From contig JAMPGN010000145.1 of assembly GCA_023663915.1 (NCBI GenBank), forward strand, positions 1-11,316: DNA of 11,316 nt, written 5' to 3'. The position numbers were made by a program, and so were the translations under genes. Below the pieces are notes generated by a model. That model saw only the letters and a list, made by a program, of their open reading frames with translations. It was not told where the DNA came from and searched no databases. This DNA is from Eubacterium sp. GTDB lineage: Bacteria > Bacillota_A > Clostridia > Lachnospirales > Lachnospiraceae. Every line of letters starts with the position of its first letter. Position 1 is the stretch's first letter. Shown here piece after piece: positions 2,296 to 11,316 of this stretch.

Positions 2296-2325
2296 ACAGA
2301 GTATGTAAGAGTGGGAGTGACAGTA

Positions 2326-3510
2326 TTGCGAAGGATAGGAAAGCGTATTGTAGTATGGATTCTGCTGGGATGCCTTGTGCTCAACGCAGGATTTATAGGT
2401 CTATCGATGCAGGTATTGGCGGCGCCGGAGATTGCCACGCCATCCTATATTGTGATGGAGGCGTCCACCGGACAGGTGATCTGCGAGCAGGATGCGGACA
2501 CGAGGAGAAGTCCGGCGAGCATCACAAAGATCATGACACTGCTGATTATTTTTGAACACATAAAGAGCGGAAGAATCCATCTGGAAGACCTGGTGACTAC
2601 CAGCGCCTATGCAAAATCCATGGGCGGTTCCCAGGTATTCCTGGAGGAAGGAGAGACGCAGACATTAGAGACGATGATCAAATGTATCGCGGTTGCGTCG
2701 GGAAACGATGCCAGTGTAGCGGTGGCAGAATACATAGCAGGCAGTGAGGGTGAGTTTGTCAAGCTGATGAATGAGAAAGCGGAAGAGCTGGGGATGCAGA
2801 ACACGCATTTCGAGGACTGCTGCGGATTGTCCGATTCCGATAACCATTATTCCTCGGCAAAAGATGTGGCGGTCATGTCCAGAGAATTGATTACGAAGTA
2901 TCCCGAAGTCTTTGACTATACAAAGATCTGGATGGAGGATATCGAACATATAACGCCGACGAGCACATCGACTTTTACCTTGTCCAGTACGAACAAACTG
3001 CTCAAGCAGTACGAATGGACGACGGGGCTTAAGACAGGTTCCACCTCGAAAGCGTTATATTGCCTGTCGGCGACGGCGGACAGGGACGGCATGGAACTGA
3101 TTACCGTGGTGATGGCGTCGCCGGACCCGAAAACGCGTTTTGCAGATGCGATAACCTTGTTGAATTACGGCTATAGCGTGAGCCAGATGTACCACGATGA
3201 TAACAAAGAGCCTCTTCCCGAACAAAAAGTGGAAGGCGGCATCGAAGATGTTTTGTACTTAACCTATGAAGGGGCATTTGATTATCTGGATACAAACGGC
3301 AGTAACTTAAGCGAAATCCAGAAAGAGATCAGCCTGCCGGACATCGTCAAGGCCCCGGTTGCGGAGGGGGATGCCATCGGGGAGGCAGTCTATAAACTCG
3401 ACGGAAAGAGGATCGGGAGCGTGTCCATCCTTGCGGCAAAAGGCGTGGATAAAGCAGGATACAAAGATTACTGGAAAAAAGTATGGATATTATATCTGAT
3501 GAAACGATAA
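2326..3510 (+). CDS. D-alanyl-D-alanine carboxypeptidase (PBP5-like, serine type), copy 1
   Basis: Removes the terminal D-Ala from peptidoglycan pentapeptides outside the membrane and so limits cross-linking. With the TTG start at 2326 the protein is 394 residues. The three penicillin-binding motifs are present: SITK (65-68, nucleophile Ser65), SGN (125-127) and KTG (236-238). A Sec signal peptide is clear: basic MRRIGKR, a hydrophobic stretch, then VLA/A near residue 32. The region after the KTG motif matches the expected size of a PBP5 C-terminal beta domain. The C-terminal end (KKVWILYLMKR) is a short amphipathic or hydrophobic tail that may anchor it to the membrane. TTG 2326 was chosen because GGGAG (2313-2317) sits 8 bases before it; in-frame GTG 2311 has only a poor ribosome binding site but would add just five residues. 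The gene stands alone between the rpsU terminator and the phosphoesterase promoter. The dacA/dacF type is not resolved. Confidence 0.93.
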   Translation: MRRIGKRIVVWILLGCLVLNAGFIGLSMQVLAAPEIATPSYIVMEASTGQVICEQDADTRRSPASITKIMTLLIIFEHIKSGRIHLEDLVTTSAYAKSMGGSQVFLEEGETQTLETMIKCIAVASGNDASVAVAEYIAGSEGEFVKLMNEKAEELGMQNTHFEDCCGLSDSDNHYSSAKDVAVMSRELITKYPEVFDYTKIWMEDIEHITPTSTSTFTLSSTNKLLKQYEWTTGLKTGSTSKALYCLSATADRDGMELITVVMASPDPKTRFADAITLLNYGYSVSQMYHDDNKEPLPEQKVEGGIEDVLYLTYEGAFDYLDTNGSNLSEIQKEISLPDIVKAPVAEGDAIGEAVYKLDGKRIGSVSILAAKGVDKAGYKDYWKKVWILYLMKR

Positions 3511-3587
3511 CGCGCGGGACAGACGGATACACATAACAGTGAAAATGGGCTGAACCGTTGCGCTGGCTGTCAAAGAATGGTGTAAAA

Positions 3588-3599
3588 GAACGAATGTTC
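3588..3599. promoter_or_regulatory. LexA (SOS) box-like palindrome
   Basis: The palindrome GAAC-GAAT-GTTC fits the core of the Firmicutes LexA/DinR site, GAAC-RNRY-GTTC, at every core position. The flanking bases are A rather than the preferred C and G. It lies 5 bases upstream of the -35 box of the promoter at 3605-3634. That the site is functional is an inference. Confidence 0.45.
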
Positions 3600-3604
3600 A
3601 CAGA

Positions 3605-3634
3605 TTGCGGGAAGCCCCAGTTCTATGATATACT
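3605..3634 (+). promoter_or_regulatory. Promoter of the phosphoesterase-scpAB operon
   Basis: TTGCGG (3605-3610) and TATACT (3629-3634) are 18 bases apart, with an extended -10 TG at 3626-3627. The predicted start of transcription near 3641 leaves a leader of about 35 bases before ATG 3676. This supports that ATG, because the earlier in-frame ATG at 3625 lies inside the promoter. Confidence 0.65.
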
Positions 3635-3675
3635 TTATAAGTTGTCTGGACATGACGGCATTTGGAGAAGAGTGT

Positions 3676-4569: not shown

Positions 4570-5338
4570 GCTGGAGGTGTTCGAGGGACCTTTAGATCTG
4601 CTCCTTCACCTGATTGATAAAAATAAAGTGGATATTTATGATATTCCGATCGTGGAGATCACGGAACAATATCTGGATTATATCAGGCAGATGGAGACGG
4701 AGGATATGAATGTCATGAGTGAGTTTCTGGTCATGGCGGCGACTCTGGTCGATATCAAATGCAGGATGCTCCTTCCGAAAGAAGTAAATGAGGAGGGGGA
4801 GGAAGAAGATCCGAGGGCGGAACTGGTCGAGAAACTGCTGGAATACAAAATGTGCAAGTATATGTCCTACGAACTGCGGGACCGTATGGTGGATGCGGAG
4901 CGCAGCCTTTATAAGAAACCAACGCTTCCCAAGGAGGTAGCGGATTACAGGCAGCCGATAGATTACGAAGAACTGATTGGAGATATGACCCTGCAGAAAT
5001 TACATGAGATATTTAAACAGACCATGAAGCGGCAGGAAGACAAAATCGATCCGGTCAGGAGCACTTTCGGCAATATTGAAAAAGACGAGATTGACATGGA
5101 ACTAAAGACTACTTTCGTGGAGGCATATGTGCGTAGCCACAAGACATTTAGTTTCAGAAAGCTCTTAGAAAAGCAGAATAGCAAGATGGAAGTGATTGTA
5201 ACCTTTCTGGTTATTCTGGAAATGATCAAAACTGGCAGGATCGGAATCGAGCAAGAGGATACTTTTTCGGATATCATCATCACGACGAAAGACGTAAACG
5301 GCGATATGCCCGTGCAGCTTACGTCCGTCGCGGAATAG
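4553..5338 (+). CDS. scpA: Segregation and condensation protein A (kleisin)
   Basis: ScpA is the kleisin subunit that bridges the SMC ATPase heads and, with ScpB, forms the bacterial condensin that organises the chromosome. The 261-residue protein begins with the family signature VKLEVFEGPLDLLLHLIDKN, followed by DIYDIPIVEITEQYLDYI and the MAATLVDIKCRMLLP helix. An acidic linker follows (EEGEEEDPRAE). The C-terminal winged-helix region contains the TFVEAYVRSHKTFSFRKLL and VIVTFLVILEMIKTGRI segments. Length is typical. ATG 4553 was preferred to ATG 4514 because AAAGGA (4541-4546) is correctly spaced and the family begins here. It overlaps the phosphoesterase by 17 bases and is followed 11 bases later by scpB. 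Confidence 0.97.
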   Translation: MAIPVKLEVFEGPLDLLLHLIDKNKVDIYDIPIVEITEQYLDYIRQMETEDMNVMSEFLVMAATLVDIKCRMLLPKEVNEEGEEEDPRAELVEKLLEYKMCKYMSYELRDRMVDAERSLYKKPTLPKEVADYRQPIDYEELIGDMTLQKLHEIFKQTMKRQEDKIDPVRSTFGNIEKDEIDMELKTTFVEAYVRSHKTFSFRKLLEKQNSKMEVIVTFLVILEMIKTGRIGIEQEDTFSDIIITTKDVNGDMPVQLTSVAE

Positions 5339-5349
5339 AGGAAAGAATT

Positions 5350-5919
5350 ATGGAAAGAGCGAAAGCAAAGGCAGTGTTGGAGGCAATTCTTTTTACGATG
5401 GGCGATTCGGTCGGCATCGACAGCCTCGCGAATGTGATTGAGGAAGATAAAGAGACAACCAAAGAGATCCTTGCGCAAATGGCACAGGAATACGAGGCGC
5501 AGGACAGGGGGATCGGGATTACAACGCTGGATAATGCGGTGCAGATGTGCACGAAAGGTGAGCTGTATGAGTATCTGATCAAGATAGCCAAAGTGCCGAA
5601 AAAGTTTGTGCTCACGGACACGCTGCTTGAAACGCTTTCCATTATCGCTTACAAACAGCCGGTGACGAGGCTGGAAATCGAGAAAGTCAGGGGCGTAAGC
5701 TGTGACCATGCGGTGAACAAACTGCTTGAGTACGATCTGATTATGGAAGTGGGGAGGCTTGACGCACCGGGACGGCCGCTTCTTTTCGGGACGACGGAAC
5801 AGTTCCTTCGGAGTTTCGGAGTGAAGTCACTAGATGACCTGCCGGAACTTAGCGCAGTGCAGATCGAGGAGTTTAAACAGCAGGCGGAGTCCGAGGTGCA
5901 GTTACAGCTGGATATTTGA
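5350..5919 (+). CDS. scpB: Segregation and condensation protein B
   Basis: ScpB is the tandem winged-helix partner that dimerises on ScpA in the SMC-ScpAB complex. The 189-residue product shows the first winged helix near the start (AKAVLEAILFTMGDSVGIDSL) and the family core LLETLSIIAYKQPVTRLEIE followed by KVRGVSCDHAVNKLLEYDLI. The later GRLDAPGRPLLFGTTEQFL segment is also characteristic. The GAGGA ribosome binding site (5338-5342) overlaps the scpA stop codon, with 7 bases to ATG 5350. No separate promoter is seen between scpA and scpB, so they are co-transcribed. No strong terminator follows. Two leader hairpins (5979-5999 and 6011-6034) could end some transcripts but lack an adjacent U tract. 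Confidence 0.97.
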   Translation: MERAKAKAVLEAILFTMGDSVGIDSLANVIEEDKETTKEILAQMAQEYEAQDRGIGITTLDNAVQMCTKGELYEYLIKIAKVPKKFVLTDTLLETLSIIAYKQPVTRLEIEKVRGVSCDHAVNKLLEYDLIMEVGRLDAPGRPLLFGTTEQFLRSFGVKSLDDLPELSAVQIEEFKQQAESEVQLQLDI

Positions 5920-5938
5920 GAAAATAATATTTTTATGC

Positions 5939-5966
5939 TAAGGTAAGCGGTATGCTATGCCGATAT
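5939..5966 (+). promoter_or_regulatory. Sigma-D/sigma-28-type flagellar promoter
   Basis: GCCGATAT (5959-5966) is an exact match to the sigma-28 family -10 element. A TAAG sequence (5939-5942) lies 16 bases upstream, close to the TAAA -35 element. The promoter lies 20 bases after scpB and drives toward the flagellin gene, which fits late flagellar control. A start near 5973 would give a leader of roughly 195 bases, unusually long. Confidence 0.75.
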
Positions 5967-5978
5967 AGTTGTTATATT

Positions 5979-5999
5979 ATAGGAAATTCTTATTCCTAT
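5979..5999 (+). promoter_or_regulatory. Leader hairpin 1 before the flagellin gene
   Basis: A 7-bp stem, ATAGGAA (5979-5985) with TTCCTAT (5993-5999), closes a 7-base loop. It would lie at the very 5' end of a sigma-D transcript, where it could protect the mRNA. There is no following T tract, so it is not a good terminator. Confidence 0.45.
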
Positions 6000-6010
6000 G
6001 TTTATTGCGA

Positions 6011-6034
6011 GTTTGCGAAGCGAATTTCGTAAAC
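6011..6034 (+). promoter_or_regulatory. Leader hairpin 2 before the flagellin gene
   Basis: A 9-bp stem with one G-U pair, GTTTGCGAA (6011-6019) with TTCGTAAAC (6026-6034), closes a 6-base loop. Six T residues appear only 12 bases later (6047-6052), so terminator function is doubtful. Together with hairpin 1 it makes the leader strongly structured. Confidence 0.45.
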
Positions 6035-6035
6035 G

Positions 6036-6044
6036 TGCTATACT
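6036..6044 (+). promoter_or_regulatory. Possible second promoter (extended -10) for the flagellin gene
   Basis: TGC followed by TATACT (6036-6044) is a good extended -10 element. The -35 region is poor: the nearest candidate, TTGCGA at 6013-6018, is 20 bases away. If active, it would let housekeeping sigma-A transcribe the gene from near 6051. Confidence 0.3.
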
Positions 6045-6051
6045 TGTTTTT

Positions 6052-6069
6052 TATGATATTGATATCATA
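6052..6069. repeat. 18-base palindrome in the flagellin leader
   Basis: TATGATAT and ATATCATA form 8-base arms around a central TG. It is too tight to fold well as RNA, so it is more plausibly a DNA operator for a dimeric regulator, or an AT-rich coincidence. No known binding consensus was recognised. Confidence 0.35.
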
Positions 6070-6156
6070 TGAAATCAATTCGTTTCTCCGGAAATTCTAT
6101 GTGCCTGTATAGGCCGATTTCGTTTTGATATGGATGCAGGGAGGCAAACTATCACC

Positions 6157-6165
6157 GGGGGGGGG
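6157..6165 (+). repeat. Homopolymeric G9 tract at the flagellin ribosome binding site
   Basis: Nine consecutive G residues end 4 bases before ATG 6170 (G9, CAAA, ATG). The tract occupies the Shine-Dalgarno position and could pair with the anti-Shine-Dalgarno through G-C and G-U pairs. A better-looking AGGGAGG (6138-6144) is 25 bases from the ATG, too far to serve it. Runs of this kind are prone to slipped-strand length changes. Confidence 0.8.
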
Positions 6166-6169
6166 CAAA

Positions 6170-8035
6170 ATGCACTCAGTAAAGACAAATATGCTGGCAT
6201 GGAACGCCAGTCGTGAATTAGGTATTACTACTAAGAAAAATGCTAAGAACACAGAGAAATTATCTTCCGGCTACCGCATCAACAGGGCGGCGGACGATGC
6301 GGCGGGGCTTGCCATTTCTGAGAAGATGCGCAGGCAGGTGCGCGGGCTTACGCAGGCGTCACAGAACGCACAGGACGGTATTTCCATGGTACAGTCGGCA
6401 GAAGGCGCGTTAAATGAGGTGCATGACATGCTGCACCGTGCTAACGAGCTGGCAGTGAAGGCGGCGAACGGCACATTGACCGATGACGACCGCGAACTGA
6501 TCGACATGGAGGTACAGCAGGTCAAGAAAGAAATCGATAATTCTGCGGAACATACGGTTTTCAATGAGATTAGGCTGTTTCCGGACGACGGCAAATCACC
6601 GCGCAGCGCGTCTGTGATTGAGCAGTTTCACTATGAGATGAGTTATAATTTGAACGACGGCTCCTATGTGATCGACTATTCGCAGAGCACGGCAGGGGCA
6701 GGGCGAGCAGGGGTCAATGCGGTGTCCAGCGGCAACGCGCTTGCGGACGCGATTGCAAATGAATTGATCCCCAATGCGGTTCAGCAGATATTCGCTGCTT
6801 TTCCGTCATTGAAGAATGCAGTAGGCAATGATACGATCCAGATGGCTCTGGACGTATCTTACATAGACGGACCAAGCAACACGCTGGCGTATGCTTCCTA
6901 TTCTTACTACAATACTGCTGGCTCGAAACCAATTGAAATGGGAATCAAGGTGGATACTTCCGATTTCAGCGAGAAAGATATTGTGGACGGTACAGACTCC
7001 AAGGTGGAGATGTTAAAATCTACGATCGCGCATGAGATTACCCATTCCATCATGCAGTATACGCTGACGGATGGGATGAGTGGCAGAAACGGCGAGAAGT
7101 ACCCTACATGGTTTATAGAAGGTTCGGCACAGTTGTCTGGCGGTGGGTTTACTACCGGCTGGAATAACCAGCTGATATATTATGCAGACCGGCTTACCGA
7201 TGCGGATGACACTTCGATGGATGCAAATATAAAGAATTATATGCAGCAGTACAGCGTTACAGGCAGACCTTACGGGCACGGTTATCTTGCCACGGCATAT
7301 GCCGCTTATAAGGCAAATGGCGGCGGGGCTGTGACAGCCGCGGGCATTGCCGCAGGAATGGATAAGATTTATGCAAGCCTGCTAAACGGTGACAGTCTGG
7401 ACAAAGCGCTGACGGACAACGCGGGTATATCGGAGCAGGATCTTCTGACTCAATTCGCGAGAGGCGAGAGCGATGTGATAAAATTTGCCAGAGAACTGGC
7501 TTTCCAGTCCAAGGGCGGAGCGGGTTCGGTGGTGGCAGCTGCGTTAAATACGGGCGGTTCACAGATTCTTGGAACGACGGCGGGCAATCAGGCGTTCCAG
7601 ATCGATCCAACCAAAGTGAACGTGGATCTTTCCGGCGGCCATTCTTCCGTATTCTTACAGGTAGGCGCGGAGGCGGGCCAGCATATTGAACTGACCCTTT
7701 ACCAGATGAGCGCGGAGGCGCTGGGGCTGGCGGATACGAATGTCAAAACGACAAGCGATGCAGACGACGCAATCAACGCGGTCAAAGCGGCGATCAAATA
7801 CGTCAGCATGGTGCGCAGCGATTACGGCGCGATACAGAACCGTCTGGAACATACGATCAATAATCTGGATAATATTATCGAAAATACAACTTCTGCGGAA
7901 TCTCTCATCCGGGACGCAGACATTGCGGATGAGATGCTGGAATATTCGTGCAACCAGATTCTGATGCAGGCAGGTGCATCCGTGCTGTCCCAGGCGAACC
8001 ACCAGTCGGAGATGATACTCAGTCTGCTGGGATAA
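6170..8035 (+). CDS. Flagellinolysin: flagellin with zinc metallopeptidase domain in the variable region
   Basis: A structural flagellin that also carries a peptidase, expected to be exported by the flagellar type III system and assembled into the filament with the enzyme displayed on its surface. The 621-residue product has canonical flagellin ends. The N-terminal D0/D1 part (about 1-140) contains EKLSSGYRIN, DDAAGLAISEKM and NAQDGISMVQSAEGALNEVH. The C-terminal D1/D0 part (from about 490) contains LQVGAEAGQHIELTL, RDADIADEML and ILMQAGASVLSQANHQ. In between, some 350 residues replace the usual variable domains and carry HEITH (288-292) and WFIEGSAQ with Glu317, the HExxH plus downstream Glu pattern of gluzincin peptidases. 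The WFxEG context resembles M9 collagenases, the group to which flagellinolysins are assigned. ATG 6170 gives the normal flagellin N-terminus; upstream in-frame starts (TTG 6125, ATG 6134) would add non-flagellin residues across the G9 tract. There is one cysteine (Cys594). Substrate specificity cannot be read from sequence. Confidence 0.93.
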   Translation: MHSVKTNMLAWNASRELGITTKKNAKNTEKLSSGYRINRAADDAAGLAISEKMRRQVRGLTQASQNAQDGISMVQSAEGALNEVHDMLHRANELAVKAANGTLTDDDRELIDMEVQQVKKEIDNSAEHTVFNEIRLFPDDGKSPRSASVIEQFHYEMSYNLNDGSYVIDYSQSTAGAGRAGVNAVSSGNALADAIANELIPNAVQQIFAAFPSLKNAVGNDTIQMALDVSYIDGPSNTLAYASYSYYNTAGSKPIEMGIKVDTSDFSEKDIVDGTDSKVEMLKSTIAHEITHSIMQYTLTDGMSGRNGEKYPTWFIEGSAQLSGGGFTTGWNNQLIYYADRLTDADDTSMDANIKNYMQQYSVTGRPYGHGYLATAYAAYKANGGGAVTAAGIAAGMDKIYASLLNGDSLDKALTDNAGISEQDLLTQFARGESDVIKFARELAFQSKGGAGSVVAAALNTGGSQILGTTAGNQAFQIDPTKVNVDLSGGHSSVFLQVGAEAGQHIELTLYQMSAEALGLADTNVKTTSDADDAINAVKAAIKYVSMVRSDYGAIQNRLEHTINNLDNIIENTTSAESLIRDADIADEMLEYSCNQILMQAGASVLSQANHQSEMILSLLG

Positions 8036-8062
8036 TTCTGACAGGGAAAGGAGCATGTTAGG

Positions 8063-8440
8063 ATGGGGACAATCAGAAAGATAACCTGCAGTACATGCAA
8101 GAATGAGTGGCAGTGTATGGAAGGCTGCGGGCTGGCACACGGGCGGCTTACGGCTGCGGCAGGCGTGTTTTCGGAAGAGGTGAGAAGGGATATTGCTGGA
8201 AAAGTTGGCGACGAGAAATTTCCGATATTTGATTTCAAATATCGTATCTCTGCCTGTGACCAATGCGGCAACATGGTGAGTGTTCCTGTATTGAATCTGA
8301 TGGATCATGATGCAGAATATATGGGTGTCTGTCCGGTATGCGGCAGTACGGCGGGAACGGCTGCGTATTCCGACGGCACGCCTTGTCCGTCATGCGGGGC
8401 AGAGACGCTTACGTCGGAGGAAGTGGGGCACTGGGATTAA
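8063..8440 (+). CDS. Cys-rich zinc-ribbon-like protein of unknown function
   Basis: Not a family I recognise. The 125-residue protein has five cysteine pairs: C9/C12, C18/C22, C65/C68, C90/C93 and C108/C111. The last three (CDQCG, CPVCG, CPSCG) look like zinc-ribbon knuckles, so at least two zinc sites are plausible. There is no signal peptide or membrane segment, so it is probably cytoplasmic. ATG 8063 is preceded by AAAGGAG (8047-8053, spacing 9). It starts 27 bases after the flagellinolysin stop with no terminator or promoter between them, so the two are probably co-transcribed. A role in flagellinolysin expression, export or metal handling is only a guess from context. It could equally be a generic rubredoxin- or zinc-ribbon-like protein. 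Confidence 0.85.
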   Translation: MGTIRKITCSTCKNEWQCMEGCGLAHGRLTAAAGVFSEEVRRDIAGKVGDEKFPIFDFKYRISACDQCGNMVSVPVLNLMDHDAEYMGVCPVCGSTAGTAAYSDGTPCPSCGAETLTSEEVGHWD

Positions 8441-8469
8441 GGATAAGAAGCGGAGGAATAGGAGAATCC

Positions 8470-8500
8470 TTGTCATACAAAAAGCATACATGCATATATA
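8470..8500 (+). promoter_or_regulatory. Possible promoter of carboxypeptidase copy 2
   Basis: TTGTCA (8470-8475) is a good -35 box. The -10 is ambiguous: CATATA at 17 bases or TATATA (8495-8500) at 19 bases, within an alternating AT run. Its place in the 87-base gap before the carboxypeptidase gene is sensible, but the match is weak. Confidence 0.35.
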
Positions 8501-8527
8501 TTAACGAAGAAGCATGAAGGCTAGTAT

Positions 8528-9793
8528 ATGCGTATCTTTTCAAAGGGCAAATTATTCATAACAACAGATATTTTAAACAAGGCAGTCGCCATGGTGTTGG
8601 CGATCGCCTTGTTTTCTTGTTCAACTGCGTATGTCTGCGCCAGGGAAGGCGCGCAGGCAGAAGGAGATGAATTACAGTTATATGCGCAGGCGGCGGTTCT
8701 CATGGATGCGGATTCCGGGCGTGTCCTGTATGGCAAGAATGAGAGGGATGTTCTTCCGATGGCGAGCACAACGAAGATCATGACGTGTATCCTTGCGTTA
8801 GAGTACGGCAATCTGGATCAGATCGTGGAAGTGTCCGCCTACGCGACGAGTATGCCGAAGGTGAAACTGTATGTGAGACAGGGGGAGAGATACCGGTTAG
8901 AAGACCTGCTCTATTCGCTTATGCTGGAATCCCATAATGATTCGGCGGTAGTGATCGCGGAAGCCGTGGGTGGAAGCGTGGAGGGGTTTTCTGCGATGAT
9001 GAATCAGAAAGCGAGGGATATCGGGTGTTATGATACATATTTTATTACACCCAACGGTTTGGACGCGGTCGTTAACGACAATGGAAAAATACATTCCACC
9101 ACGGCGCGGGATCTGGCTAAGATCATGGCATACTGCGTGACGGATTCCTCCGCCAAGGAGAAATTCCTGGAGATCACGCGGACGATCGGATACGATTTTA
9201 CTGATGCGGACGGCGTCAGAAGCTTTCACTGCAACAATCACAATGCTTTTCTGGGTATGATGAAAGAGGCGCTTTCCGGCAAAACTGGATTTACAAATAA
9301 CGCAGGTTATTGTTATGTGGGAGCCATAGAGAGCGAGGGACGGATATTTACGGTTGCGCTGCTCGCTTGTGGCTGGCCGAATAACAGGAGTTATAAATGG
9401 AGCGATATGAAGAAGCTAGCTGCCTATGGAATGGAGAATTATGAATACAGGGACATCTATGAGGAGCAGGAGGCACATGACATTCTGGTCAAAAACGGGA
9501 TCGACAATCGTTCCGGTGTCCCCTATAATGCGGCATATGTGACTGCACTCGTAGATGACCAGGGAGAAAAGAGTATCCCATATCTTCTGAGCAATGAAGA
9601 TGAGATAGAGGTCAGGACGCAAATCGACAGCGTGCTGCAGGCTCCGGTCGGGGAGCGGGAGGAGGTCGGAACAGTGTGTTATTACTTAAACGGCGAACTG
9701 ATCAGACGGTATCCTGTGGTCACGACGGAGGCGGTGGAAGAACGTACCTATAAATGGATATGCTTTTATCTTTTGGAAATCTTTTTGCCATAA
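8528..9793 (+). CDS. D-alanyl-D-alanine carboxypeptidase (DacF-like, serine type), copy 2
   Basis: A second extracytoplasmic carboxypeptidase that trims the terminal D-Ala of peptidoglycan stem peptides. The 421-residue protein carries STTK (80-83, nucleophile Ser80), SHN (135-137) and KTG (252-254). Its N-terminus is a signal peptide with hydrophobic AVAMVLAIALFS and a likely cleavage near VCA/REG (residue 38). LFSC at 28-31 resembles a lipobox but has Phe at -2, so a lipoprotein is less likely. The C-terminus ends in a hydrophobic stretch, WICFYLLEIFLP, a probable membrane anchor. It has the same architecture as the copy at 2326-3510 but clearly diverged sequence, so it is an old paralogue rather than a recent duplicate. 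ATG 8528 has GAAGG 7 bases upstream. In several Firmicutes a dac gene lies near scpAB, which suggests this one may belong to that neighbourhood. A sporulation role is possible but not shown. Confidence 0.93.
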   Translation: MRIFSKGKLFITTDILNKAVAMVLAIALFSCSTAYVCAREGAQAEGDELQLYAQAAVLMDADSGRVLYGKNERDVLPMASTTKIMTCILALEYGNLDQIVEVSAYATSMPKVKLYVRQGERYRLEDLLYSLMLESHNDSAVVIAEAVGGSVEGFSAMMNQKARDIGCYDTYFITPNGLDAVVNDNGKIHSTTARDLAKIMAYCVTDSSAKEKFLEITRTIGYDFTDADGVRSFHCNNHNAFLGMMKEALSGKTGFTNNAGYCYVGAIESEGRIFTVALLACGWPNNRSYKWSDMKKLAAYGMENYEYRDIYEEQEAHDILVKNGIDNRSGVPYNAAYVTALVDDQGEKSIPYLLSNEDEIEVRTQIDSVLQAPVGEREEVGTVCYYLNGELIRRYPVVTTEAVEERTYKWICFYLLEIFLP

Positions 9794-9959: not shown

Positions 9960-11316
9960 ATGAGTACTACTTCTCAAGCGAGTCAAAGAATCAATGCTTT
10001 GCTCGATGAAAACAGTTTCGTTGAGATCGGTGCGCTCGTGACGGCGAGAGCTACGGATTTTAATTTGAAACAGGCAGAAACTCCGTCGGACGGTGTTGTG
10101 ACCGGCTATGGATTGATCGACGGTAATCTTGTGTATGTGTATAGTCAGGATGCTTCTGTTTTGAATGGAACAGTCGGCGAAATGCATGCGAAGAAAATTG
10201 TGAACCTCTATGATCTGGCATTGAAAACAGGAGCGCCTGTAATCGGATTGATCGATTCTGCCGGACTTAGGCTGCAGGAGGCTACCGATGCGTTGAACGG
10301 TTTCGGAGAGATCTATATGAAACAGGCACTTGCCTCAGGCGTGATCCCTCAGATCACGGCGGTATTTGGCAGCTGCGGCGGCGGGCTTGCGCTGATTCCT
10401 GCAATGACTGACTTTGCTTTTATGGAAGAGAAGAAAGCAAAGCTGTTCGTAAATTCCCCGAATGCTTTGGAGGGCAACGAAATTTCCAAATGCGATACAT
10501 CTGCAGCCACATTCCAGAGCGAGGAGACAGGGCTTGTGGATGCGGTTGGCGATGAAGCTTCTATCATGGCGCAGATCAGAGAACTTGTTTCCATGTTGCC
10601 TGCCAATAATGCGGAGATCGCGGTAGCCGATTGCACAGATGATTTGAACAGAGCGTGCGCGCAGATTGCGAATTGTGTAGGAGATACTTCCATTGCACTT
10701 TCCCAGATCGCGGATGACGGTATCTTCGTGGAGGTAAAACAGAATTATGCAAAAGATATGGTTGCAGGATTTATCAGATTAAACGGGGCAACCATCGGCG
10801 CAGTTGCCAACCGCATGGAAGTTTACAATGCCGACGGCGAAGTGACGGATAAATTTGACGCGGTACTGTCCGCAAGAGGAGCGGAGAAAGCGGCAGAGTT
10901 CATTAATTTCTGTGATGCTTTTGACATTCCGGTACTCTCCCTCACGAATGTGAAAGGTTTTGCGGCGTCGAAATGCTCCGAGAAGAGAATGGCGAAAGCG
11001 GTAGGGAAACTTACATATGCTTTTGCGAATGCAACCGTTCCGAAGGTGAACGTGATCATCGGCAAGGCATATGGCAGCGCTTATGTCGCAATGAACTCGA
11101 AGGCGATCGGCGCGGACATCACGATCGCGTGGCCGGAAGCCGAGATCGGTATGATGGATGCGAAGCTTGCGGCTAAGATCATATGTGACGGACAAGGTTC
11201 TGATGCCATTGATGCGTGTGCAAAAGAGTATGCGGCGCTTCAGAATAATGTGGCAAGTGCGGCGAAGAGAGGATATGTAGACCAGATCGTTGAGCCTGCC
11301 GATACGAGAAAATATG
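9960..11316 (+). CDS. Acyl-CoA carboxyltransferase subunit (PccB/MmdA-like), 3'-truncated by window edge
   Basis: A biotin-dependent carboxyltransferase that moves a carboxyl group between carboxybiotin and an acyl-CoA. It could serve in propionyl- or acetyl-CoA carboxylase, or in a sodium-pumping methylmalonyl-CoA decarboxylase. 452 codons are present without a stop; members run to about 470-520 residues, so little is missing. Both crotonase-like halves are visible. The N-terminal half has VIGLIDSAGLRLQEA and the glycine-rich oxyanion loop GSCGGG (137-142). The C-terminal half has GKAYGSAY (368-375) followed by AWPEAEIGMM. The N-terminal segment reads SAGLRLQE where typical PccB/MmdA proteins have SGGARIQEG-like sequence, and GSCGGG replaces GPCAGG, so it is a divergent clostridial subgroup. 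GGAGGG (9947-9952) lies 7 bases before ATG 9960. The partner biotin carrier and other subunits would lie beyond the right edge; their identity would settle which complex this is. Confidence 0.9.
   Translation, partial: MSTTSQASQRINALLDENSFVEIGALVTARATDFNLKQAETPSDGVVTGYGLIDGNLVYVYSQDASVLNGTVGEMHAKKIVNLYDLALKTGAPVIGLIDSAGLRLQEATDALNGFGEIYMKQALASGVIPQITAVFGSCGGGLALIPAMTDFAFMEEKKAKLFVNSPNALEGNEISKCDTSAATFQSEETGLVDAVGDEASIMAQIRELVSMLPANNAEIAVADCTDDLNRACAQIANCVGDTSIALSQIADDGIFVEVKQNYAKDMVAGFIRLNGATIGAVANRMEVYNADGEVTDKFDAVLSARGAEKAAEFINFCDAFDIPVLSLTNVKGFAASKCSEKRMAKAVGKLTYAFANATVPKVNVIIGKAYGSAYVAMNSKAIGADITIAWPEAEIGMMDAKLAAKIICDGQGSDAIDACAKEYAALQNNVASAAKRGYVDQIVEPADTRKY

Follow-up and report, generated by a model that had tools for sequence, protein, structure and literature searches.

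A flagellinolysin gene with a conserved cysteine-rich partner gene and a G tract at its ribosome-binding site in a Lachnospiraceae genome

How could a cell make a protease that is part of a flagellin, export it unfolded and avoid digesting itself, if the protein carries no propeptide? The question is raised by a gene, here called flaMP, in an 11,316-nucleotide stretch of DNA from Eubacterium sp. (Lachnospiraceae; contig JAMPGN010000145.1), the whole of which we call the window. The product of flaMP is predicted to be a flagellin with a zinc metallopeptidase as its outer domain; it would leave the cell through the flagellar type III apparatus and, once exported, be incorporated in the filament beside ordinary flagellins. 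The small protein encoded directly downstream, zr, is a concrete candidate for how such a protein is made and exported without self-digestion.

The flagellinolysin gene and its predicted active site

The features of flaMP are as follows (handles beginning with G and L below denote genomes and loci).

6170..8035, + strand: flagellinolysin gene (flaMP), 621 aa, ATG start; assigned by NF033876, Pfam and homologues
6179..6583, + strand: flagellin N-terminal D0/D1 part, residues 4-138 (PF00669)
6500..7822, + strand: stretch covered by the flagellinolysin model NF033876, residues 111-551
7031..7045, + strand: HEITH, residues 288-292; putative zinc ligands His288 and His292 and general base Glu289, roles by analogy with PMC5595980
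7109..7132, + strand: WFIEGSAQ, residues 314-321; putative third ligand Glu317 and basement Ala320
7271..7285, + strand: YGHGY, residues 368-372; Tyr368, Gly371 and Tyr372 invariant in 55/55 relatives
7775..8029, + strand: flagellin C-terminal part, residues 536-620 (PF00700)

Judged from its sequence, flaMP is almost certainly a flagellinolysin. A preliminary description of the window had recognised flagellin D0/D1 ends enclosing an insert and had named the flagellinolysin class, and the profile searches bear this out: Flagellin_N (PF00669, E 6.4e-39) and Flagellin_C (PF00700, E 1.5e-24) match the two ends above the Pfam gathering scores, and the NCBIfam model NF033876, 'flagellinolysin', gives 220.9 bits, above its curated cut-off of 205. 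Its placement in the M9 collagenase group has to be given up, as flaMP matches no M9 peptidase model in Pfam up to E 0.1 and the family is listed as MEROPS M101 in PMC7643111. The relevant text of PMC5595980 describes flagellinolysins as a discrete family distant from M9, with the peptidase domain of clostridial collagenase as the closest homologue by PSI-BLAST and structure prediction.

Relatives of flaMP are numerous. With the insert region (residues 138-535) as query, a protein search returned 637 homologues at E<=1e-3; the 120 listed are 56-75 percent identical to the flaMP insert, and three of these bear the name 'flagellinolysin [Lachnospiraceae bacterium]'. A scan of genome contigs yielded 78 flagellinolysin loci, most of them titled Lachnospiraceae or genera that we take to belong there, and the rest unnamed bacteria, Clostridia/Clostridiaceae, Eubacterium, Hungatella and one 'Bacillus sp.' MAG. 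Homology and shared gene order likewise make a Lachnospiraceae host probable. The flagellinolysin family is already known, and flaMP alone is a new member of it. The ATG of flaMP aligns with the first residue of 14 of 19 aligned proteins (starts as chosen by gene callers), and an alternative TTG start at 6125 would place the nine-G run described below within the protein. Between 3 and 12 matches to the flagellin N-terminal model, some of which are flaMP itself, FlgL-type proteins or fragments, were found in each of 20 genomes; for this reason we would expect flaMP to be a minor filament subunit, by analogy with C. haemolyticum, whose flagellinolysin is estimated in PMC5595980 at up to 10 percent of the filament. 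Some members of the family are arranged differently: the peptidase domain lies in very long flagellin-like proteins (961-1087 aa) at L117, L118 and L122, a 1254-aa flagellin directly follows the flagellinolysin gene at L121 (895-4659), and L144 (G724) has two tandem flagellinolysin-like genes followed by further flagellin-like genes.

HEITH, WFIEGSAQ with Glu317, and YGHGY all lie where the preliminary description had put them, and the predicted catalytic residues that it named are all present in flaMP. Glu317 stands 25 positions past His292, with 24 residues between them, which is the spacing of His237 and Glu262 in the characterised C. haemolyticum protein, and flaMP Ala320 (Glu+3) corresponds to Ala265 of that protein (PMC5595980). 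Conservation was counted in 55 full-length relatives, those that passed a length and frame filter from 86 sequences (the window, L001-L078 and 7 others). Trp314, Glu317, Gly318 and Ala320 are invariant in 55/55, as are the three YGHGY residues listed above; the 55/55 obtained for His288, Glu289 and His292 is circular, because the filter demanded HE..H. Conservation of YGHGY, which had also been proposed, thus holds for its tyrosines and Gly371 and not for its histidine, since His370 is His in 50/55 and replaced in 5 distant members; by this alignment the conserved core is YxxGY. In other gluzincins a tyrosine takes part in transition-state stabilisation, and one of the YxxGY tyrosines may do the same here. 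For the calcium-site aspartate upstream of HExxH, which is Asp206 in C. haemolyticum (PMC5595980), flaMP offers two candidates, Asp262 (54/55 relatives) and Asp265 (55/55). A full-length flaMP model built on 19 close relatives was of low confidence (mean pLDDT 57.1); it places HEITH in a helix at 277-298 and Glu317 in a helix at 313-323, and all matches listed by Foldseek and VIA searches with this poor model are flagellins.

A small cysteine-rich protein encoded beside flagellinolysin

8063..8440, + strand: zr, a partner protein of 125 aa that carries four CxxC pairs and a C-terminal GxWD; conserved neighbour, confident AlphaFold2 model

The AlphaFold2 model of zr has a mean pLDDT of 90.7, and a Foldseek search with it listed nothing among solved structures at E<=0.001, nor was any fold match significant. 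The zr of the window matches no Pfam or NCBIfam family above cut-off; at E<=0.01 it matches two zinc-ribbon families and one domain of unknown function, all below cut-off. Curated models of flagellar chaperones are not matched, and no signal-peptide-like start was seen by eye. In the 53 sequences compared (the window and 52 loci), the cysteines at positions 9, 12, 65, 68, 90, 93, 108 and 111 are invariant, as are Gly2, Trp16, Gly21, Gly23, Phe58, Pro75, Pro109, Trp124 and Asp125. A wider set of 43, which includes five distant copies, retains six cysteines, Trp124 and Asp125 in 43/43; none of the five distant copies keeps Trp16, and one of them (L085) is without both Cys12 and Cys90, two of the eight cysteines. 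dN/dS values of 0.07-0.32 in 12 pairs indicate purifying selection on zr. zr is probably a zinc-binding protein. Protein searches found little: a single-sequence search returned zr itself only, and an alignment search, with 440 candidates, returned 13 proteins; these include the query and a 'hypothetical protein [Anaeromicropila populeti]'. Because such searches need shared 5-residue words and undercount, our zr counts are taken from DNA loci and genomes.

A zr relative stands directly after flaMP on the same strand in 54 of the 78 loci, with a gap of 10-222 bp in 52 of these 54. L046, whose zr has an internal stop, and L052, whose zr is fused to a truncated flaMP, were kept among the 54 and omitted from the 53-sequence conservation count. 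The fusion at L052 (4923-5324) is in frame, a deletion having taken the end of flaMP and the start of zr, and may be an assembly error. The 24 loci without zr are L035, where the contig stops at the end of flaMP, and L054, L056, L057 and L059-L078; many of these last 23 are titled Butyrivibrio and Pseudobutyrivibrio. The neighbouring genes vary: 53 flaMP-zr pairs form 31 groups that have no neighbouring gene in common (at most four genes per side); among the single-locus groups, the upstream flank is missing in three and short in two. Across the 31 groups, flaMP and zr have therefore stayed together while their surroundings differ.

Among 19 whole genomes picked for carrying flaMP, 9 have exactly one zr and none was found in the other 10, which are mostly Butyrivibrio and Pseudobutyrivibrio. 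The zr profile matched (E<=1e-3) in 22 of the 299 genomes in the family of G007, and only the 9 matches that span positions 1-125 were counted. Eight of these 9 full-length zr genes adjoin flaMP, which by coordinates they follow in G007, G009, G050 and G126 and precede in G073, G083, G116 and G212; the ninth, in G260, lies on a contig that ends 104 bases past zr, within what by eye is the start of a flagellin. A flagellin-embedded peptidase domain was found at E<=1e-20 in 10 of the 299 genomes, including G050, counted as a carrier despite an internal stop codon in its flaMP. Full-length zr occurs in 8 of these 10 genomes versus 1 of the 289 others (Fisher 2.8e-13, kinship not corrected for). 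Per genome we scored the best 14 first-look candidates for zr in this family, 11 for zr in the class and 6 for the peptidase, so that misses are possible. NF033876 gave matches in 96 of the 299 genomes, 2 of them above cut-off; most span the flagellin C-terminal part alone and were not counted, nor were weak partial matches in G099, G304 and G311 and two further ones in G212. An eleventh peptidase match, in G111, lies in a dockerin protein with no flagellin match.

Among the 391 genomes searched in G007's class, which we take to be Clostridia, the zr profile found G007, G534 and G546 and a doubtful match in G691, which was left uncounted (no WD tail, no adjoining flagellin). The peptidase profile found seven: G007, G534, G546, G404, G496, G341 and G579. 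G404 and G496 carry a second form of zr, zr2, and neither zr nor zr2 was found in G341. G546 retains zr next to a flagellin with a shortened insert that has lost the zinc motif. No zr was found near the flagellinolysins of G295, G297, G341, G724 and G886; the last two, further flaMP carriers in 249 genomes of the phylum, were judged by cysteine and tail criteria. Nor was zr found in G579 and G111, whose peptidase domain belongs to a protein without a flagellin match. Both proteins have a signal-peptide-like start: that of G579 (L126) has 875 aa and no Pfam match, and that of G111 (L103/L123) has 720 aa and a dockerin domain. They are possibly the source, or an escape, of the peptidase domain.

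The zr2 beside the flaMP of G496 has 106 aa. It begins with Met-Gly and ends in Tyr-Asp; of its three CxxC pairs one lies at 9-12, and positions 21 and 23 are both Gly. Among 40 genomes in the family of G496, zr2 is intact in exactly the 7 that carry flaMP (E<=1e-60) and by coordinates stands 15-305 bp after it; an eighth genome, G948, has a zr2 remnant and no flaMP. A comparison of two chosen profiles, one of zr and one of zr2, aligns the first 29 positions with probability 93, and the two proteins are likely homologous.

The zr-flaMP pairing is conserved and nearly exclusive in two groups of bacteria. Distances between zr sequences correlate with those of the flagellin ends and of the peptidase insert at partial r 0.26 and 0.31, respectively, about equally well, so that neither part stands out as the site of contact. 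In a tree (support values unquoted), the Butyrivibrio group without zr falls among zr carriers, and no conserved replacement gene was seen by eye in the list of neighbours of Butyrivibrio flagellinolysins. We are confident that zr is a true functional partner of flagellinolysin.

The probable insertion site, the promoter-like site and the G tract

5350..5919, + strand: scpB (PF04079), left flank of the insertion
5920..8460, + strand: segment missing from the collinear site of the relative G079 (blastn against L208), holding the promoter-like site, flaMP and zr
5939..5966, + strand: sigma-28-like promoter TAAG-N16-GCCGATAT; 1 match in the window, 0.01 expected
6157..6165, + strand: tract of nine G where the ribosome-binding site is expected, separated from the ATG by 4 bases
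8528..9793, + strand: gene for a DacF-type D-Ala-D-Ala carboxypeptidase (PF00768), right flank

The genome G079 has no flaMP or zr match, and its scpB, 84 percent like that of the window, is the closest among genomes lacking flaMP. In a blastn comparison with L208 of this genome, window positions 5337-5919 correspond to 3042-3625 and 8461-8507 to 3627-3675, such that the dacF region directly follows scpB in G079 and the window holds an extra 2.5 kb. A dacF-like gene stands beside scpB in 16 of 30 scpB loci (from 86 genomes matched; about 1 kb apart at L193), and flaMP is found at scpB in L178 alone among the 30. Because the scpB-dacF order is common, the comparison favours a gain of the flaMP-zr unit in the window over a loss in G079. 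Four loci (L013, L018, L022 and L023) are collinear with the window, in the order alaS, rpsU, dacF, phosphoesterase, scpA, scpB, flaMP, zr, dacF, carboxyltransferase, and L009 and L015 share its right side. The scpAB region of the window is itself flanked by two DacF-type carboxypeptidase genes, at 2311-3510 and 8528-9793.

Between scpB and dacF, flaMP and zr are, as far as sequence can tell, a two-gene unit with its own sigma-28-like promoter. No terminator-like site was found on the + strand between the two genes, and they look like one transcription unit. Promoter patterns were drawn from the sigma-28 promoter consensus. TAAR-N15-17-NCCGAT, which was adjusted after the results of earlier patterns, occurs upstream of 18 of 55 flagellinolysin genes, four of which have fewer than 300 bases upstream (Markov mean 0.43; coding control 0/55). 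Measured against single-base shuffles, TWAA-N14-16-NCCGAT occurs at 16/55 (0.48 expected) and bare SCGATA at 35/55 (5.5 expected); the first pattern, TAAA-N13-16-SCGATA, was mis-spaced and gave 2/55 (0.26 expected). The site fits expression of flaMP with the flagellar late genes, even though the locus is non-flagellar.

The nine-G run places a homopolymer tract at a site that can set expression. Runs of at least seven G occur at 13 of 72 flaMP starts versus none of 940 other ORFs, in species that are related, so the events are not independent. The 72 comprise 71 starts and that of L050, and the control examined the 40 bases that precede the first ATG in long ORFs, where the one hit among 941 was the L050 flaMP itself. 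The difference from other flagellins (0/13, two of which are the broken flaMP genes of L048 and L055) is not significant (p 0.2); the plain count of such runs is 13/74 for flaMP and 0/11 for other flagellins. In the 1.39 Mb of 79 sequences there are 15 runs of at least eight G or C: 10 are found no more than 30 bp upstream of a flaMP start, one (L050) before a flaMP that the start finder missed, and one (L055) inside flaMP at a frame break. Three others lie at the edge of the L009 contig, where positions 1-92, ahead of flaMP, consist almost entirely of C (runs of 20, 12 and 10); the assembly probably broke there at a homopolymer. The L055 run is a ten-G tract in the coding region (10342-10351), as would be seen in an off state produced by slippage or an assembly error.

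Chances seem to us evenly balanced that slippage in the tract can change how much enzyme is made. The comparison covered a single genome of each species, and in it no intraspecific change of tract length was observed. A somewhat weaker possibility, which we would not dismiss lightly, is that it is an ordinary ribosome-binding site altered by drift and has no switching role. Such a run could arise from the GGAGGG that L002 and other relatives have at the same place, and shuffling the window 200 times gave eight Gs at least twice in 13 cases. G runs also precede ATG at other places in these genomes: a pattern count over 19 whole genomes gave 143 hits forward and 57 in reverse, and the reversed pattern gave 28 and 67, with long runs entering more than once. 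At 30 such loci, of which six or more are duplicates, the downstream frames are mostly short, and the longer ones, named by eye, are flaMP, a glycosyltransferase-like protein, proteins with secreted-type starts and a few others; flaMP is therefore not alone in having a G tract. Drift accounts less well for the excess at flagellinolysin starts over other ORFs, or for the coincidence of the L055 tract with a frame break. If the tract is a switch, only part of the population would have protease-bearing flagella, which would alter the dealings of cells with mucus, food protein or other bacteria.

The role of zr and comparison with known systems

Taken as a whole, the locus is best explained as a flagellinolysin in a two-gene unit with a zr partner and a G tract that may be tunable by slippage, a reading that we consider likely. 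For zr itself we tentatively propose a role as cytoplasmic escort or inhibitor of flagellinolysin, which is plausible but short of probable: zr would hold the flaMP insert unfolded or inactive in the cytoplasm until export. Many secreted metalloproteases have an N-terminal propeptide. There is no place for one in flaMP, because its N-terminus is the flagellin D0 part. The full-length flagellinolysin of H. gracilis is reported in PMC7643111 to be unpurifiable owing to aggregation and autolysis; uncontrolled activity is therefore a real problem. Against a need for zr, the Butyrivibrio and Pseudobutyrivibrio carriers and G295, G297, G341, G724 and G886 apparently do without it. The zr of G546, beside an insert without the zinc motif, fits a pure inhibitor poorly unless the loss is recent. 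A broader scenario, which we think rather unlikely as a whole, is that zr and zr2 are a diverged family of dedicated cytoplasmic guards that replace the propeptide and have spread in a cassette of two genes, shared with the protease flagellin, and that G-tract slippage tunes translation in many gut Lachnospiraceae, giving protease-armed and plain filaments.

Three other roles for zr can be considered. It might be a small zinc-ribbon regulator acting on the transcript or translation of the flagellinolysin gene. Many nucleic-acid-binding proteins contain zinc ribbons, it is mostly generic ribbons of this kind that zr matches weakly in Pfam and NCBIfam, and the apparent single transcription unit, with no + strand terminator-like site inside it, is compatible with such a function. 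That zr stands either before or after flaMP, and that the zr of the window has no family above cut-off and no significant fold match, speak against regulation, which we regard as doubtful. Less likely still, zr could be a metal-handling protein that gives zinc to the metallopeptidase or takes it away, as the eight cysteines invariant in 53/53 and a zr2 match to the metallochaperone HypA just below cut-off (27.1 versus 28.9 bits, for the member shown) might suggest; flagellins traverse the export channel unfolded, so zinc should bind outside the cell, and the distant zr of L085 has lost two of its eight cysteines. Finally, zr might be a general flagellin accessory whose link to flagellinolysin is incidental: in G212 and G534 it has an ordinary flagellin on one side and flagellinolysin on the other, in G001 an ordinary flagellin comes after it, and in G260 it precedes the flagellin-like start. 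We judge this improbable, since full-length zr was found in just 1 of the 289 family genomes that gave no flagellin-embedded peptidase domain at E<=1e-20, even though, from their many flagellin C-terminus matches, flagellins are encoded in a good part of them.

The proposed escort or inhibitor would resemble FliS and other flagellar export chaperones in being a cytoplasmic partner. Unlike chaperones of the FliS type, zr matches no chaperone family, is cysteine-rich and has no Foldseek match at E<=0.001. As for the enzyme, bacterial collagenases of M9 share the gluzincin motif with flaMP, which belongs to the separate MEROPS family M101. FliA(H) of C. haemolyticum, as described in PMC5595980, and flaMP both have flagellin ends, HExxH, a Glu at +25 and Ala at Glu+3; FliA(H) has a surface-exposed peptidase domain with measured activity, whereas flaMP is likened to it from the published residues. 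The C. haemolyticum gene sits in a flagellar cluster according to PMC7643111, in contrast to flaMP between scpB and dacF, and the portions of PMC5595980 and PMC7643111 that we drew on mention no zr-like partner for it. HgrFlaMP of Hylemonella gracilis, of the same family, is likewise encoded outside the flagellar gene cluster, and the neighbours named for it in the text of PMC7643111 (a NUDIX hydrolase, a MarR regulator and others) include no zinc-ribbon protein. In the parts of the flagellinolysin literature covered here, we found no paper describing zr or the G tract. What looks new is the setting of a known family: a zinc-ribbon partner that is conserved, the unit that it forms with flaMP, and the G tract.
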